A DNA stretch of 64,000 nt from Aliiruegeria lutimaris (GTDB taxonomy: Bacteria; Pseudomonadota; Alphaproteobacteria; Rhodobacterales; Rhodobacteraceae): positions 1 to 64,000 of the forward strand of contig NZ_FNEK01000015.1 in the NCBI RefSeq assembly GCF_900099935.1, read 5' to 3'. The notes under the pieces are model-generated. The model was not told where the DNA came from. It searched no databases and worked only from the letters and a program-made list of their open reading frames with translations. Each line of letters opens with the position of its first letter. Positions within the stretch are counted from its first letter, which is position 1. A program made the translations under genes and the position numbers. Shown here piece after piece: positions 32,935 to 39,162 of this stretch.

Positions 32935-33609
32935 TCAGGCGACTTCCTTCATCGCCTCCAGCGTGTGGGCCAGCCCTCCGCGGATGTGGGCTTCGAGGAT
33001 TTCACTGGCTTTCGCCGCGTCCCGCGCGAGGGCGGCGTCGAGCATTGCGCGGTGTTCACGTACAGCGGTTTCGCCCCGATTGGTCAGCACGAGCATCTGG
33101 TAGCGCAGGTACTTGTCGTAAAGCAGCGCGTGCAGCGAGAGCAGGTTCCTGGAGTTGCAGGCCTGGATCAGGGCTAGGTGGAACTCCCAGTCATAGCGCT
33201 TCCACGCCTCTACCTCGGAGTGGTCTCCCTGCAGCATGCGCTGTTCCATGAGGTGCAGCTTGTGATGGGCGGCAACGAGATTGCCCTCCCATTCGGTATC
33301 TCCGTTCGAGATCGACAATTCCAGCGCGTGGCATTCCAACAATACCCGCAGGTTCGACACTTCGATGAGATCCTCGCGGGAGACGGGCGTTACGAAGAAG
33401 CCGCGCTGCTCGGGCGCATCGACGAAACCCTCGCTGGCCAGTCGGTTGAGCGTTTCGCGCAGCGTCGAGAGGCTCGCCGAGTACCGGTCCTTGAGTGGCT
33501 CCAGCTTGAGCTTCTCGCCTGGCGCGAGGACGCCGAAGATGATGTCGTGCTTGATCCGTTGGTAGGTGCTCGTCCCTACCGTCTTATGTGCTTTTGTCAT
33601 CTTGGGCAT
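32935..33609 (-). CDS. GntR-family transcriptional regulator
   Basis: 224 residues. Winged helix at about 12-70 (STYQRIKHDIIFGVLAPGEK; YSASLSTLRETLNRLASEGF), FCD effector domain after it (LRVLLECHALELSI; DWEFHLALIQACNSRNLLSL; EHRAMLDAALARDAAKASE). Divergent from the Gfo/Idh gene across a 245-bp AT-rich gap containing an AAAATATC site. The likely regulator of the island at 33.8-38.6 kb. Confidence 0.9.
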   Translation of the reverse strand: MPKMTKAHKTVGTSTYQRIKHDIIFGVLAPGEKLKLEPLKDRYSASLSTLRETLNRLASEGFVDAPEQRGFFVTPVSREDLIEVSNLRVLLECHALELSISNGDTEWEGNLVAAHHKLHLMEQRMLQGDHSEVEAWKRYDWEFHLALIQACNSRNLLSLHALLYDKYLRYQMLVLTNRGETAVREHRAMLDAALARDAAKASEILEAHIRGGLAHTLEAMKEVA

Positions 33610-33691: not shown

Positions 33692-33708
33692 AAAATATCA
33701 GAAATTAT
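33692..33708. promoter_or_regulatory. Candidate GntR operator, site 1
   Basis: AAAATATC-A-GAAATTATT: imperfect copy of the perfect palindrome at 35064-35080. Located 83 bp before the GntR start and upstream of the Gfo/Idh gene, in a very AT-rich stretch, so chance cannot be excluded. Confidence 0.4.
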
Positions 33709-33795: not shown

Positions 33796-33858
33796 ATGTT
33801 CATTGGAAGCGAGAGACGAAAGGCGCGGGTTCGCTTTTCCGGGTGGGGTACGGCATGA
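33796..33858 (+). CDS. Possible 20-residue leader peptide coupled to the Gfo/Idh gene
   Basis: ATG at 33796 has one of the strongest ribosome sites in the window (GGGAGGGAG, five bases away). It encodes MFIGSERRKARVRFSGWGTA and stops at 33856-33858, overlapping the ATG of the oxidoreductase (ATGA). The oxidoreductase itself has only a poor site, so its translation may depend on this leader. Highly basic, no homology recognised. Confidence 0.45.
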   Translation: MFIGSERRKARVRFSGWGTA

Positions 33859-34901
33859 CGGCGGAAATTCGTATTGCTGTTGCAGGCGTCGGCCTTGTCG
33901 GGCGGCGCCATGTCGATGCGATCGCGAGAACGGCTGGGGCAGTCCTTGCCGGGGTCGTCGATCCCAGCGAGGAGGGACGCGCCTATGCGGACGCGAACGG
34001 GCTTCGCCATTTCGATACGCTCGAAGAGCTTTTGCGTGCGCAGGTCACGGACGGAGTCATCCTGTCGACACCGACGCCCCTGCATGTCGAACAGGCGCAG
34101 GCTTGCGTCGCGCAGGGGCTGCCCGTGCTGGTAGAAAAACCGCTGGCAACCTCGGCGGAGGCGGCCGCTGTGCTGGTCGCGGAGGCCGAACGCAAGGAAG
34201 TGCCGATCCTCGTCGGCCACCACCGGCGGCACAACCCGTTGATCCGGAAGGCCTGGGAGTTGATCGACGCCGGCGAGATCGGCCAGGTTCGAGCAGTTCA
34301 GGCAACCTCCTGGTTCTACAAGCCGGACGGGTATTTCGAGGTCGCGCCCTGGCGCAAACAGAAAGGCGCGGGGCCGATCTCGGTCAACCTCGTCCACGAT
34401 GTGGACCTGATGCGCCATCTCTGCGGCGAGGTGATAAGCGTGCAGGCGCAGGCGACGCCCTCGCTGCGCGGTTTCGAGAACGAGGACGTCGCCGCGGCGG
34501 TATTTCGCTTCGAGAATGGCGGCATCGGCACGATCACCGTCTCCGATTCCATCGTCGCGCCATGGAGTTGGGAGCTGACCTCGCAGGAATACCCGATCTA
34601 CCCGCGTACCTCCGAGAGCTGCTACCTGATCGGCGGGTCGCATGGTGCGCTCTCGCTGCCCGACCTCCGGCTCTGGCGTCACGGAGGTGAACGCGATTGG
34701 TGGAGCCCGATCAGCGCGACCTCGATGGTGCGGGAGTCCTCGGACCCGCTTCTGAATCAGATCACCCATTTCGCCGCCGTGATTCGAGGTGAGGAGGCGC
34801 CGTTGGTCAGCGGGCGCGAAGGGCTGCGCACGCTCAGGGTGGTCGAGGCGATTCAGGCTTCGGCCGAAACAGGAACGACCGTCACGATCTCTCGGGACTA
34901 A
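33855..34901 (+). CDS. Gfo/Idh/MocA-family NAD(P)-dependent oxidoreductase
   Basis: 348 residues from the ATG at 33855. Rossmann N-terminus IRIAVAGVGLVGRRHVDAIA, catalytic-type EKPLATS (about 96-102), and the C-terminal sheet domain with GHHRRHNPLIRKAWELIDAG and NLVHDVDLMRHLCGEV. Oxidises or reduces a sugar, inositol-like or aldonate compound. Last residues DGTTVTISRD-like. Placed between the GntR regulator and the dehydrogenase/ThDP genes, so probably the first step of the same pathway (inference). Confidence 0.88.
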   Translation: MTAEIRIAVAGVGLVGRRHVDAIARTAGAVLAGVVDPSEEGRAYADANGLRHFDTLEELLRAQVTDGVILSTPTPLHVEQAQACVAQGLPVLVEKPLATSAEAAAVLVAEAERKEVPILVGHHRRHNPLIRKAWELIDAGEIGQVRAVQATSWFYKPDGYFEVAPWRKQKGAGPISVNLVHDVDLMRHLCGEVISVQAQATPSLRGFENEDVAAAVFRFENGGIGTITVSDSIVAPWSWELTSQEYPIYPRTSESCYLIGGSHGALSLPDLRLWRHGGERDWWSPISATSMVRESSDPLLNQITHFAAVIRGEEAPLVSGREGLRTLRVVEAIQASAETGTTVTISRD

Positions 34902-35063
34902 GATCCCGTAAAACGGGTCGCTCGGCGGAAAATCCAGATACCGATACCAGGGAGGGCAACGCGTTCGCGTAGCCCTTCCTTTGTCATCGACCTTGGCGGA
35001 TGCAGCTTGGATCGGGCCTCCGGCAGAAGATCGTGCTCTCAAACTTCATAGTTGATAATTTAA

Positions 35064-35080
35064 AAAATATCGGATATTTT
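35064..35080. promoter_or_regulatory. Candidate GntR operator, site 2
   Basis: AAAATATC-G-GATATTTT: perfect palindrome, 8-bp arms. Located in the gap between the Gfo/Idh gene and the dehydrogenase/ThDP operon, where the promoter of the latter should lie. Confidence 0.5.
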
Positions 35081-35132
35081 GAGAATCAAATGATTATTAA
35101 TGCTGGCAATGCAAGTCCGAAAGGAACCCCAA

Positions 35133-35267
35133 ATGTCCCATGAATTCAGGAATAACGGCGGCAGGTCGCTCCTTGCGCGGGCGATTCTTGCGTTGATCAA
35201 GGCGGCCACCCGGGAGCTGGTCCATTTCACCGCGCGCGAGGGCATTTCACCGCGCGCGAGGGCATGA
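35133..35267 (+). CDS. Small ORF (44 codons) altered by a 20-bp tandem duplication
   Basis: MSHEFRNNGGRSLLARAILA... starts at 35133 after AAGGAACCCC. The duplication at 35224-35263 shifts the frame and ends the product at 35267. With one copy removed the frame reads on through MIQLSRDARLNSGES to a stop at 35309-35311 (52 residues), just before the dehydrogenase operon. No family recognised; may be a decayed small gene or leader. Confidence 0.4.
   Translation: MSHEFRNNGGRSLLARAILALIKAATRELVHFTAREGISPRARA
35224..35263. repeat. Perfect 20-bp tandem duplication
   Basis: Two exact copies of ATTTCACCGCGCGCGAGGGC with no spacer, at 35224-35243 and 35244-35263. The exact identity suggests a recent slippage event. 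Confidence 0.95.
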
Positions 35268-35387
35268 TCCAGCTCTCCCGCGACGCGCGGCTCAATTCAG
35301 GCGAGAGCTAAATCGACCTGGCAGGGAATGCGCGGTCCCGCCACCGCATGCCGGAGATGGCTGCCATTCAGGGAGACGAGGAACATT

Positions 35388-36797
35388 ATGGCCAAAGAAC
35401 TCACGGAACAAGAAGCGGCGCTGGCTGCGGAAATGCTGTCGCGCGCACGTGCGGCGATGGCCGAGATCGAGGATTGGAGCCAGGCCGACCTGGACCGCCT
35501 CTCGCAGGCCATTGCCTGGTACGCGGGCAACGCAAAGACTTTCACCCGACTGGCACAGCGCGGCGTGGATGAAAGCGGCATTGGCGACCGCGACGGTCGC
35601 CCGGGCAAGCGCTTCAAGATCCACATGGTTCTTCGCGACGTGCTGCGCACGCCTTCGACCGGTATTGTCGAAGTGGACGAGGCGAAAGGGTTGGTGAAAT
35701 ACGCCAAACCCGCCGGCGTGATCGCCTCGCTGATCCCGATGACCAACCCGGCCATGACGCCGCCGGTCACGGGCGTCTCCTCGGCCAACGCGCGCAACGC
35801 GGTGATCTTCTCACCGCATCCGCGCACCGCGGGGACGACCTATGAGATGGTCGAGGTGATGCGTGCGGCCTGCCGGGCCGTGGGCGCGCCGGAAGACTTG
35901 TTCCAGTCGATCCAGAAACCGTCGATCCCGCTGACGCAGCATTTGATGGAGATCTGCGACCTGACTCTGGCCACCGGTGGCAAGCCAATGGTCAAGGCTG
36001 CTTATTCCTCCGGCAAGCCGGCCTATGGCGTGGGCGCGGGCAACTCCTCCATCGTCATCGACGAGACGGCGGATATCGAGATCGCGGCCCAGAACACCCG
36101 CATATCCAAGACCTCCGATTTCGGCTCGGGCTGCTCGGCGGATGGCAATATCATCATCCAGCGTTCGATCTATGACCGCATGGTGAAGGCGCTGGAGGCC
36201 GAGGGCGGATACCTTTGCTCCGCTGTAGAGAAAGCGCTGCTGGAGAAAGCGATGTGGGACGAGAAGGGCAACCGCACCTTCCCGACTATCGCCTGCCGTC
36301 CGCAACAGACGGCGGATGTGGCCGGCTTTTCCATCCCCGAGGACCGCAAGTTCCTGATGGTCGAGAACCAGGGCCAGATCGGTCCTGAGCACAAGTTCTC
36401 CAAGGAGAAGCTGACCACGCTCATGGCGCTCTACCATTTCGAGACCTTCGACGACGCGCTGGAGACCGTCCGCCAGATCTACGAGACCGGCGGCAAGGGC
36501 CATTCCTGCGGGATCTACTCGCATGATGACGCGAATATCGACGCGCTCGCCCGTCTCGCGCCGGTCAGCCGGATGATGGTCCGTCAGCCGCAATCCAAGG
36601 CGAATGCCGGTGCCTGGACCAACGGTATGCCGATGACCTCATCCCTCGGCTGCGGGATCTGGGGCGGCAATATCACCAATGAGAACGTCACCATGAAACA
36701 CATGATGAACTACACTTGGGTGAGCCGTCCGATCCCGGAGGACCGGCCCTCCGAAGAAGAGCTGTTCGGTGAGTTCTACGGCAAGGAAGCGCTGTGA
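35388..36797 (+). CDS. CoA-acylating aldehyde dehydrogenase (sulfoacetaldehyde dehydrogenase SauS-like)
   Basis: 469 residues from the ATG at 35388 (GGGAGACGAGGAAC upstream). Aldehyde dehydrogenase superfamily, acylating branch: AKPAGVIASLIPMTNPAMTP, NARNAVIFSPHPRTAGTTYE, the catalytic Cys249 in DFGSGCSADGN, and TNGMPMTSSLGCGIWGGN near the end. Resembles acylating sulfoacetaldehyde dehydrogenases (SauS) and acetaldehyde/propionaldehyde relatives. Converts an aldehyde, NAD(P) and CoA to acyl-CoA or the reverse. Its stop overlaps the ATG of the ThDP enzyme (TGATG), so the two are made together. Confidence 0.85.
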   Translation: MAKELTEQEAALAAEMLSRARAAMAEIEDWSQADLDRLSQAIAWYAGNAKTFTRLAQRGVDESGIGDRDGRPGKRFKIHMVLRDVLRTPSTGIVEVDEAKGLVKYAKPAGVIASLIPMTNPAMTPPVTGVSSANARNAVIFSPHPRTAGTTYEMVEVMRAACRAVGAPEDLFQSIQKPSIPLTQHLMEICDLTLATGGKPMVKAAYSSGKPAYGVGAGNSSIVIDETADIEIAAQNTRISKTSDFGSGCSADGNIIIQRSIYDRMVKALEAEGGYLCSAVEKALLEKAMWDEKGNRTFPTIACRPQQTADVAGFSIPEDRKFLMVENQGQIGPEHKFSKEKLTTLMALYHFETFDDALETVRQIYETGGKGHSCGIYSHDDANIDALARLAPVSRMMVRQPQSKANAGAWTNGMPMTSSLGCGIWGGNITNENVTMKHMMNYTWVSRPIPEDRPSEEELFGEFYGKEAL

Positions 36798-38578
36798 TGG
36801 CGAACGACAAGACCGTCGCTGAACATATCGTCGATTTCCTTGAGCGGCGGGAGATCACCCACGTCTTCGGCCTCTGCGGTCATACCAATATCGCCGTGCT
36901 GGCGGCATTGGCCGGGAGCCCGATCGCGTTTGTGAACGTACGCCATGAACAGATCGCCAGCCACGCCGCCGATGCCTATGCACGCGTGCAGGGCAGGGCG
37001 TCTGTCGTGCTCTCGCATCTGAGCCCCGGCCTCACCAACTGTGCGACCGGCGTCGCCAATGCCGCGCTGGACTGCATCCCGATGGTGGTGATCGCGGGCG
37101 ATATTCCGACCCATTACTACGGCAAGCACCCGCACCAGGAGGTGAACCTGCACGCGGATGCCCAGCAATACGAGATCTACCGTCCTTTCGTTAAACGCGC
37201 CTGGCGCGTGGACCGGGCGGAGCTGATGGCGGAGATCCTCGAAAAGGCCTTTCACCTGGCCGAGAGCGGGCAGCCAGGGCCGGTGCTGGTTAACGTGCCG
37301 ATGGATATCTTCTCGGAGGTGATCCCGTCGGACAGCTTCGAACGCATCGCCGGCAATACCCGCGCGCTGGTGAAGCCGTCGTTGGATGATGAGACCGCGC
37401 GCGCCATCGTGCGGAAACTGGCCGAGGCCGAGAAGCCGGTGATCTATGGCGGCGGCGGCATCCTGCTGGCGAAGGCCTCCGAGGAGCTGCGCGACTTTGT
37501 CGATCAAATGCAGATCCCGGTGGCGCATTCGTTGATGGGCAAGGGCCTGCTGCGCGACGACCACCCGCTCGTGCTCGGCATGACCGGTTTCTGGGGAACC
37601 TCGCTCACGAACAATGCTTGCCTTGAGGCGGATGTCGTCTTTGCCATCGGTACCCGGTTCAAGGAGGCGGACTGCTCCTCCTGGTATCCCGGCTACACCT
37701 TCAATATCGGCGGCAAGGGGGACAAGACGAAGGTCATCCATATCGATATCGAACCGCAGGAGATCGGTCGTAACTACCCGACCGAGATCGGCGCGGTGGC
37801 CGATGCAAAAGCGGCGCTCAGGGTGCTGATCCGGGTGGCGAAGGAGATGTATCCGGACGGCTTCCAGCGGCCCGAAATGGTCGGCAAGATCGCAGCGTTT
37901 CGCGTGGCCTTCAAGGAAAGCAACCGCGAGTTGGCAACCTCCAGCGCCTTCCCGATGATGCCGGAGCGCATCCTTGCCGATACCCGCGCGGCCCTGCCGG
38001 AGGACGCGATCATTACCACCGATGTTGGCTGGAACAAGAACGGCGTCGGCCAGCAATTCGACATCCTGACCCCCGGCTCGATCCTGACCCCGGGCGGCTT
38101 CGCCACCATGGGTTTCGGCCCGCCGGGGGCCATCGGGGCCAAGCTCGCCGCACCCGACCGGGTGGTGCTCAGCCTCGTCGGTGACGGTGGATTCGGCCAG
38201 AACCCGGCCATGCTCGCCACGGCGGTGGAACTGGATCTTGCCATCATCTGGCTGGTGATGAACAACAACGCCTTCGGCACCATCGCTGGACTGCAGAAGG
38301 CGCATTACGGCCTGACCTATGGCACAACTTTCGCCGGCTCCGTCGAGGCCCCCACCAACGGGCCGGGCTATGCGGAGATCGCGAGGGCCTATGGCGCCGA
38401 AGGGCTGCGGATCAGTTCGGCCGACGCGCTTCTGCCCGCGCTCAAAGCGGCGATTGCCAGTGGTCGTCCGACCGTTCTGGACGTGCCGATGATCAACAAT
38501 CCGACGCCCACGACCGGGCATTGGAACATCCTCGACATCTATTCGCCCGGCAAGGATGTCTCCCACGTGGCCACCTGA
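36797..38578 (+). CDS. Thiamine-diphosphate-dependent enzyme (acetolactate synthase/2-oxoacid decarboxylase fold)
   Basis: 593 residues. Pyr domain with the cofactor-activating Glu51 in VRHEQIASHAADAYARVQG, a central domain (EKPVIYGGGGILLAKASEEL), and a PP domain with the ThDP/Mg motif GDGGFGQNP (about 461) and MNNNAFG (about 488). It is not sulfoacetaldehyde acetyltransferase (Xsc) by its N-terminal wording. Paired with a CoA-acylating dehydrogenase it could decarboxylate a 2-oxoacid to the aldehyde used by the dehydrogenase (inference). An in-frame GTG at 36794 is also possible. Confidence 0.85.
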   Translation: MANDKTVAEHIVDFLERREITHVFGLCGHTNIAVLAALAGSPIAFVNVRHEQIASHAADAYARVQGRASVVLSHLSPGLTNCATGVANAALDCIPMVVIAGDIPTHYYGKHPHQEVNLHADAQQYEIYRPFVKRAWRVDRAELMAEILEKAFHLAESGQPGPVLVNVPMDIFSEVIPSDSFERIAGNTRALVKPSLDDETARAIVRKLAEAEKPVIYGGGGILLAKASEELRDFVDQMQIPVAHSLMGKGLLRDDHPLVLGMTGFWGTSLTNNACLEADVVFAIGTRFKEADCSSWYPGYTFNIGGKGDKTKVIHIDIEPQEIGRNYPTEIGAVADAKAALRVLIRVAKEMYPDGFQRPEMVGKIAAFRVAFKESNRELATSSAFPMMPERILADTRAALPEDAIITTDVGWNKNGVGQQFDILTPGSILTPGGFATMGFGPPGAIGAKLAAPDRVVLSLVGDGGFGQNPAMLATAVELDLAIIWLVMNNNAFGTIAGLQKAHYGLTYGTTFAGSVEAPTNGPGYAEIARAYGAEGLRISSADALLPALKAAIASGRPTVLDVPMINNPTPTTGHWNILDIYSPGKDVSHVAT

Positions 38579-38706
38579 CGGCTGCGTGGGTTCGTCGGGC
38601 AGGGCGCGCGTCGACGGCGCGCGCCCATGATCCTGCTGACAAGCGACGGAAACAGGCGCAGACTGCGTATCAGAAATGCGCGACGATGATTCATTGGGAG
38701 GAGTTC

Positions 38707-39162
38707 ATGACTCGCTTCGCATTTCCGATTGCAATGGCCCTCGTTCTGTTCGGCAGCTCTGCCATGGCGCAGCAATTCGTGCCGGGTGGAAACATGCTGA
38801 CCCGGTGGGACGCGAACAATGATGGCAGGGTAACCCTTGCCGAGATCCAGTCCGGACGTGCCGCCTATTTCGACGCCTATGACACGAACCGGGATGGCGC
38901 GCTTTCCTCTGCCGAGTTCGATCGCATCTCGCCGCAATCCAATGGCGGGCGTCAGGCGAACGGCCTGCGCGGGACAGCCGGCGTTCTGCGCAGCCAGATA
39001 GACACCAATCGTGACGGCTACATTTCCCGCAAGGAATACGTGGACGGTGCGCGGCTCTGGCGGGACCGGATGGACCTGAACGGGGACGGCGTGCTGACCT
39101 CTGCGGATTTCGGACGCTCGCAGGGTGGCAAAGGGCGCGGCATGCGCTGGAACAACGGCTGA
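38707..39162 (+). CDS. Secreted EF-hand calcium-binding protein (short paralog)
   Basis: 151 residues from the ATG at 38707 (GGGAGGAG upstream). Signal peptide MTRFAFPIAMALVLFGSSAM, then FVPGGNMLTRWDANNDGRVT, the same opening as the EF-hand protein at 6462-7370. EF-hand loops DANNDGRVTLAE, DTNRDGALSSAE, DTNRDGYISRKE and DLNGDGVLTSAD; all four look able to bind calcium. A basic C-terminal tail (GKGRGMRWNNG). Function unknown; periplasmic or secreted. Confidence 0.88.
   Translation: MTRFAFPIAMALVLFGSSAMAQQFVPGGNMLTRWDANNDGRVTLAEIQSGRAAYFDAYDTNRDGALSSAEFDRISPQSNGGRQANGLRGTAGVLRSQIDTNRDGYISRKEYVDGARLWRDRMDLNGDGVLTSADFGRSQGGKGRGMRWNNG

Follow-up and report, generated by a model that had tools for sequence, protein, structure and literature searches.

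The pathway of myo-inositol catabolism relies on enzymes of three superfamilies, the Gfo/Idh dehydrogenase IolG, the TIM barrels IolE/IolI and the thiamine diphosphate (ThDP)-dependent hydrolase IolD. Another ThDP enzyme, cyclohexane-1,2-dione hydrolase from Azoarcus, breaks a C-C bond in a cyclic dione (excerpted text of PMC12247030), and quinate and shikimate are degraded via protocatechuate by QuiC/QsuB and QsuD. Here we describe a locus in the first 64,000 nucleotides of contig NZ_FNEK01000015.1 of Aliiruegeria lutimaris (this whole stretch is called the window; the contig is C125 of a 5.8-Mb draft genome), in which a gene for a CoA-acylating aldehyde dehydrogenase of the SauS/AdhE-N/EutE group (acALDH; 35388-36797, plus strand, 469 aa) overlaps a gene for a ThDP enzyme (36797-38578, plus strand). 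Tentatively, we read the pair as the ring-opening and thioester-forming half of an operon for a quinate-like ring acid, which follows an inositol-type logic. A literature search that covered few subscription journals yielded no account of this operon or of its substrate.

All three superfamilies of the inositol pathway are represented in the operon; its ThDP enzyme groups with IolD and shares a GH(G/T)N motif with it, and its TIM barrel, TIM6, has IolI as the nearest solved chain, albeit weakly (39 bits). The operon differs from the inositol system in that the window proteins score below the curated IolD and IolG cut-offs, that a counterpart of the kinase/aldolase pair of the iol route is absent, and that the product would become a CoA thioester, cut by a lyase of the citryl-CoA or 3-hydroxy-3-methylglutaryl-CoA (HMG-CoA) type. 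Cyclohexane-1,2-dione hydrolase matches the window ThDP protein with 159 bits, but is less similar to it than acetohydroxyacid synthase (AHAS). With quinate/shikimate degradation the operon or its sisters share a QuiC-like fusion protein and a QsuD-like dehydrogenase, whereas the dehydratase site of the roseobacter QuiC-like proteins is lost and the ThDP enzyme, acylating dehydrogenase and CoA lyase are extra.

The acALDH and ThDP genes are coupled and conserved

The two genes are no chance neighbours; their coupling is genuine and conserved. When named genomes were scanned with the window ThDP protein, 244 confirmed relatives were obtained, of which the best 80 (78-90% identity; by record titles mostly from Rhodobacteraceae or kin) were kept. 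The acALDH gene adjoins the ThDP gene on the same strand in all 79 of these loci whose sequence extends over 1500 bp beyond the latter on its upstream side. A one-base overlap is found in 67 of the 75 loci with a placeable start (78 had both genes), and four others overlap by 4 bases. The window ThDP reading frame was listed from a GTG at 36794; from the ATG at 36797, it overlaps the acALDH gene as TGATG (36795-36799). The Cys249 motif of acALDH was detected at 84 of 90 loci (three of the 90 are second copies of named loci), with six unmatched by the pattern. When the phylum was sampled with the ThDP protein at E 1e-120, 5 of 398 genomes, including the window genome itself, gave a match, all within one family. 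Locus L009, used for comparison below, is from an uncultured Tropicimonas sp.; L133, on contig C21 of the same-genus genome G405, matches it at 100%.

These results agree with the original prediction, made from the sequence of the window, that the two overlapping reading frames are coupled and that a Gfo/Idh enzyme and a GntR regulator lie upstream (found at 33855-34901 and 32935-33609).

A longer operon in relatives

We surveyed those 73 loci in which 9 kb or more precede the ThDP gene, by clustering of neighbouring genes, NCBIfam annotation of ten cluster representatives and tblastn counts at E 1e-20. TIM6 and acALDH are present in all 73, citryl-CoA lyase in 71, the large subunit (DctM) of a tripartite ATP-independent periplasmic (TRAP) transporter in 70 and its small subunit in 53, and a QuiC-like protein in 69. 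A second and a third Gfo/Idh gene occur in 40 and 39 loci, a quinate/shikimate-dehydrogenase-type gene in 26 and an HpaI-type aldolase in 12. The counts of DctP (32), GfoA (31) and GntR (24) are probably too low, since the flank covered ends 10 kb upstream. Many roseobacter genomes contain the operon.

The citryl-CoA lyase representative, of citrate-synthase type, passes NCBIfam model NF004864 (433.6 bits, cut-off 261) and has the citryl-CoA lyase 6hxp as nearest solved chain. It differs from the latter in its presumed substrate, a citryl-CoA analogue, and the window genome has no close homologue of it (best 32%). The metal ligands of TIM6 are conserved as E, D and E in 86 of 86 aligned rows and as H in 85 of 86 (second copies of named loci account for three of the rows, and five have a stop in the translated stretch).

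Between two Gfo/Idh genes, 39 of the 73 loci encode a 223-aa protein (u223; L009:4545-5216), which gave no Pfam or NCBIfam match, and no significant match when set against proteins of similar size from the Aminobacter and Antarctobacter loci.

A citryl- or HMG-CoA lyase stands together with TIM6, acALDH and the ThDP enzyme at 71 of the 73 loci and at a second locus of the window genome, on contig C153; at the window locus the lyase is missing and TIM6 is broken. The original prediction had taken the pair with its Gfo/Idh and GntR neighbours as a route, but the locus is the remainder of a longer operon. A stand-alone four-gene route is ruled out by the longer operon in relatives and by its remains in the window.

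The window copy is a decayed remnant

GntR, GfoA, acALDH and the ThDP enzyme are what is left of the operon in the window, with a fuller paralogous operon on C153. Taken by itself, the window would be misleading, as the pair survives from a broken operon. The GntR/FCD-family regulator (32935-33609, minus strand; Pfam GntR and FCD) is divergent from GfoA, in relatives too. GfoA (33855-34901, plus strand) is an IolG-like Gfo/Idh/MocA dehydrogenase that scores 139.6 bits against the inositol 2-dehydrogenase model TIGR04380 (curated cut-off 355) and shares 58-66% identity with its counterparts in four relatives. The 485-bp gap between GfoA and acALDH contains a decayed gene and an operator-like palindrome. 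The decayed gene is TIM6 (35133-35398, plus strand; Pfam family PF01261), recognized by tblastn/blastx and by nucleotide matches to relatives. Its start region survives in part (window 35051-35243, 67% over 198 bp against L009); beyond it, a large part of the middle is gone, and then come an in-frame stop, another loss and a tail over the acALDH start; protein-level matches to the TIM6 of relatives extend over 35252-35398, with a stop and a gap. In tblastn searches of the window locus, no TRAP, QuiC-like, shikimate-dehydrogenase (SDH)-type, citryl-CoA lyase or further Gfo/Idh genes were found, and the sole QuiC-like protein of the genome is encoded on C153.

The palindrome in the gap (35064-35080) is perfect, lies where relatives have a site upstream of TIM6, and resembles the 17-bp operator-like palindrome AAAATATCNGATATTTT in front of GfoA (33692-33708, two mismatches). 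Over 31 bp, its area matches (93.5%) sequence that precedes TIM6 in several relatives, and two such sites were obtained in 0 of 100 shuffles of the window. Genome-wide, the pattern occurs at 13 places with up to three mismatches, and with up to two only at the two window sites and at one site on C139 (19887-19903), which is inside a predicted open reading frame and may be chance. In relatives, a search allowing up to four mismatches, which is loose in that each locus has 1 to 11 further sites, shows the palindrome between GntR and GfoA in 21 of 22 loci; 19 of the 20 placeable intervals ahead of DctP contain it as well.

The remaining pair still appears to be constrained. The ratio of nonsynonymous to synonymous differences (pN/pS) against five relatives is 0.11-0.19 for acALDH and 0.15-0.18 for the ThDP enzyme, while GfoA, with 0.37-0.44 against four relatives, is more weakly constrained. 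The end branch of the window ThDP protein in the tree described below (0.073) is similar to that of L009 (0.075). Because pairwise pN/pS values include the time before the loss, they would fit both a recent loss and a pair that continues to function beside C153.

Sister operons and the QuiC-like protein

The sister ARRANGEMENTS comprises six loci (L108, which is C153 of the window genome, L129-L132 and L135) with the order HMG-CoA lyase, TIM6, acALDH, ThDP enzyme and QuiC or QuiC-like protein; some have in addition an SDH-type gene, or TRAP, GntR and Gfo/Idh genes nearby. The HMG-CoA lyase of C153 passes its cut-off (303 versus 246 bits; the next model, homocitrate synthase NifV, gives 106), and those of the other five loci match it at 70-86%. 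The C153 operon is intact-looking (L108:641-9457; TetR, SDH type, HMG-CoA lyase, TIM barrel, acALDH, ThDP enzyme, QuiC), and its acALDH and ThDP enzyme are 70% and 72% identical to the window copies.

In Streptomyces and Nonomuraea replicons, the ThDP enzyme is accompanied by an ordinary aldehyde dehydrogenase, a type III CoA transferase, a citryl-CoA lyase and a pyrroloquinoline quinone (PQQ)-type dehydrogenase, and the Streptomyces replicon further has an SDH-type gene and a more distant HMG-CoA lyase gene. The ordinary dehydrogenase and the CoA transferase give the same net step as acALDH. The two exchanges, of the lyase and of the acylating enzyme, imply that a sequence from aldehyde to acyl-CoA to retro-Claisen cleavage is preserved. 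Azoarcus KH32C combines the ThDP enzyme with an HPPD (4-hydroxyphenylpyruvate dioxygenase)-like protein, a TIM barrel, a CoA transferase, a citryl-CoA lyase, a shikimate dehydrogenase and a 3-dehydroquinate dehydratase; near its ThDP gene, an exporter of the TauE/SafE family and a putative sulfate exporter are also encoded. In the sister clade, ThDP enzymes with a GHGN motif are encoded beside Gfo/Idh, cupin and aldehyde dehydrogenase genes in Aminobacter (L092, pUSP3) and Antarctobacter (L093, pSMS3-1), perhaps for a related cyclitol-acid route; on the other strand, L093 has a gene annotated as type II 3-dehydroquinate dehydratase that is below the curated cut-offs.

The excerpted text of PMC7442255 gives active-site residues of QuiC1/QsuB and calls the role of the HPPD-like C-terminal domain unknown; we scored the QuiC-like proteins against these residues. 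None of 71 roseobacter rows has all four dehydratase metal ligands (E134, D165, Q191 and E239), whereas five of the six QuiC proteins in HMG-CoA-lyase operons, including that of C153, retain all four, and L135 has two changed. All 74 roseobacter-type rows, among them three second copies of named loci, and all six rows from HMG-CoA-lyase operons retain the HPPD-type H-H-E triad. The HPPD-like domain seems to be the part of the QuiC-like protein that is under selection, and the roseobacter proteins may be of use in working out what the QuiC C-terminal domain does. One such fusion, with the dehydroshikimate-dehydratase metal site lost and the HPPD-type triad present, is encoded at L034:4806-6698.

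The ThDP enzyme groups with IolD in the tree

The window ThDP protein is a single 594-aa chain with all three TPP domains (Pfam TPP_enzyme N, M and C); sulfopyruvate decarboxylase ComDE consists of two short subunits. We built a tree of 44 rows, 17 of them from the window family, with E. coli gcl, ilvB and poxB as references; at a strict E of 1e-250, a glyoxylate carboligase reference from the class was found in 0 of 58 genomes. The 17 family rows form one clade (support 100/100), which joins IolD and three Aminobacter/Antarctobacter relatives with support 99/98 and stands apart from the rows of Xsc, acetolactate synthase (ALS)/IlvB, Gcl, PoxB, oxalyl-CoA decarboxylase (OXC) and pyruvate decarboxylase (PDC) type. 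The motif reads GHTN in the family and GHGN in IolD and the three relatives; neither form occurs in the Xsc, ALS, Gcl, PoxB, OXC or PDC rows of the alignment. The shared motif and the 99/98 clade would fit an IolD-like mode of action, while approximately unbiased (AU) test p values of 0.06-0.245 leave room for other groupings.

The window protein scores 232.8 bits against the IolD model TIGR04377 (curated cut-off 715). Over 60 genomes, identifiable family members score 223-239 bits against this model, true IolD proteins at least 752 and the ALS of the window genome 180; the family is near the top of the scores below true IolD, together with a relative only 36% identical to it (248 bits), a partial match (243.5) and another protein (224.5).

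A possible route for a quinate-like acid

Citryl- and HMG-type lyases need a thioester of the form CoA-CO-CH2-C(OH)(COOH)-R, and C1-C2-C3 of quinate would give this skeleton if the bond between C3 and C4 were cut. A quinate-like substrate appears most likely, in view also of the C153 SDH-type enzyme, whose nearest solved chains are 2nlo and 3jyo (C. glutamicum quinate/shikimate dehydrogenase, 248 bits each), of the 3-dehydroquinate dehydratase genes in the Azoarcus and, weakly, the Antarctobacter loci, and of the relation to QuiC. Gene content, order, conservation, family placement and decay are observed; from here on, we infer each reaction and the substrate. A cyclohexane hydroxy-carboxylic ring acid would be imported by the TRAP transporter, and its ring hydroxyls oxidized by the Gfo/Idh and/or quinate/shikimate-dehydrogenase-type enzymes. 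TIM6, a metal TIM-barrel enzyme of the IolI/IolE superfamily, may then form a 1,2-dicarbonyl, in which the ThDP enzyme would cut a C-C bond in the manner of IolD, leaving an aldehyde. acALDH would turn this aldehyde into an acyl-CoA of the above form, for cleavage by citryl-CoA lyase (HMG-CoA lyase in the sister operons) to acetyl-CoA and a 2-oxoacid. With 3-dehydroquinate and one dehydration, the thioester would be homocitryl-CoA, yielding acetyl-CoA and 2-oxoglutarate; without dehydration, the products would be acetyl-CoA and 4-hydroxy-2-oxoglutarate, which the HpaI-type aldolase of 12 loci could split.

If true, the operon would join inositol-style ring opening to citrate-style C-C cleavage, and turn the carbon of a cyclic hydroxyacid into acetyl-CoA plus a 2-oxoacid while bypassing aromatic intermediates. 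The wider claim, that marine Rhodobacterales and others possess a widespread, undescribed and non-aromatic quinate-type route, with hydrolytic ring opening by the ThDP enzyme, direct CoA-acylation and retro-Claisen cleavage, avoiding both protocatechuate and ring-cleaving dioxygenases, is as a whole doubtful.

Several results weigh against the quinate-like reading. In AU tests, placement of the ThDP family with ALS/IlvB/Gcl (p 0.06), Xsc (0.132), OXC (0.185) or PDC (0.245) is not rejected, and the tree contains long branches. Plain similarity of the ThDP protein is highest to acetolactate synthases: TIGR00118 is the top model listed (400.6 bits, below its cut-off of 538.35), and plant AHAS gives 248 bits, compared with 159 for cyclohexane-1,2-dione hydrolase. 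Foldseek ranks AHAS and Gcl first for the ThDP model, which is of low confidence (predicted local distance difference test (pLDDT) score 66.4) and informs on the general superfamily only. TIM6 gave no match to the IolE model at E 0.001. In the flanks covered, L024 and L049 (2 of 73 loci) show only TIM6, acALDH, the ThDP enzyme and HpaI; genes for citryl-CoA lyase, the QuiC-like protein and TRAP are absent from these flanks. The annotated Azoarcus stretch has no aldehyde dehydrogenase. The HPPD-type metal site of the QuiC-like protein has no clear place in an O2-independent route. Lastly, the operon DctP (predicted structure with pLDDT 63.2) matches 4pf6, R. denitrificans RD1_0742, with 490 bits and 72% identity, followed by sialic-acid binders. 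The ligand of 4PF6 is presumably 3-deoxy-D-manno-octulosonic acid (KDO) rather than quinate.

Alternative routes

The original prediction considered the ThDP enzyme a 2-oxoacid decarboxylase in a route from 2-oxoacid to aldehyde to acyl-CoA. Conversion of an aldehyde made by the ThDP enzyme into acyl-CoA fits well, as illustrated by the dehydrogenase and CoA transferase of Streptomyces and Nonomuraea, and decarboxylases do occur in the fold family of the ThDP protein; that the enzyme is a decarboxylase nevertheless seems unlikely. Comparison with characterized families groups it with IolD, away from the Xsc, ALS and PDC-type rows, and this favours ring opening over the decarboxylation of a 2-oxoacid; as the AU tests leave other groupings open (PDC included, at the p value above), decarboxylation is made less likely, yet is not refuted. 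A concrete version, also rather improbable, would convert 4-carboxy-4-hydroxy-2-oxoadipate to citrate semialdehyde, then citryl-CoA, and finally acetyl-CoA and oxaloacetate, and so delivers exactly the substrate of the citryl-CoA lyase that 71 of the 73 loci encode. That the oxoadipate comes from cleavage of protocatechuate or gallate, for which the HPPD-like domain might be responsible, is similarly unlikely: a QuiC-like protein with intact triad is in the operon, and protocatechuate could form in the five HMG-CoA-lyase operons whose QuiC has all four dehydratase ligands, but none of the 71 roseobacter rows has this set, and no 4,5-cleavage hydrolase or hydratase was recognized among the ten operon-cluster representatives. 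Moreover, the Streptomyces stretch is without a QuiC/HPPD-like match, and the one in Nonomuraea (32%) is about 9 kb from the ThDP gene.

Slightly less probable still is a 3-deoxy-2-ulosonic acid substrate, for instance KDO of algal-wall or lipopolysaccharide origin; the same enzymes would act on this pyranose acid by oxidation and opening, or by decarboxylation, and cleavage of the acylated fragment would yield acetyl-CoA. HpaI-type aldolases, which act on 2-keto-3-deoxy acids, occur in 12 of 73 loci, and the DctP match to 4pf6, presumably a KDO binder, would suit this substrate; however, KDO and quinate have the segment C(OH)(COOH)-CH2-CHOH-CHOH in common, so that either might take the place of the other. 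A citrate-synthase-type lyase would have no obvious substrate on a KDO fragment, and quinate/shikimate-type enzymes recur in related loci. KDO appears only as a biosynthesis benchmark in the excerpted text of PMC5788505. Alternatively, the ring of a dehydroquinate-type hydroxyketone might be opened by acyloin (alpha-hydroxyketone) cleavage to a dialdehyde, one end of which is acylated. Such a route needs one oxidation fewer, and 2-hydroxyacyl-CoA lyase and benzaldehyde lyase, among the matches of the ThDP protein, perform this chemistry in the same fold; we regard it as improbable, given that the IolD grouping and a metal TIM barrel in 73 of 73 loci suggest a prior isomerase or dehydratase step.

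A sulfonate route, from sulfopyruvate or sulfoacetaldehyde, is highly improbable. It would draw on acALDH, for which the acylating sulfoacetaldehyde dehydrogenase SauS (NF047625) is the best NCBIfam model, and on the exporter genes near the Azoarcus ThDP gene. At 421.8 bits, however, acALDH is below the curated SauS cut-off of 600, so that the proposed term 'SauS-like' holds for resemblance and not for membership. The ThDP protein scores 278.1 bits against Xsc (TIGR03457; curated cut-off 676.4), in line with the earlier statement that the locus lacks Xsc and is not the standard Xsc route. With these scores and no sulfonate enzyme among the ten annotated representatives, we set this route aside; the citryl- or HMG-CoA lyase would also have no role in it.

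Other features of the genome

Outside this locus, on contig C97, the genome encodes a true Xsc (L005:1390-3210; 924 bits, cut-off 676). Just downstream of the window ThDP gene, at 38704-39162, lies a gene for an EF-hand protein with weak similarity to lanmodulin (37.1 bits, cut-off 135).

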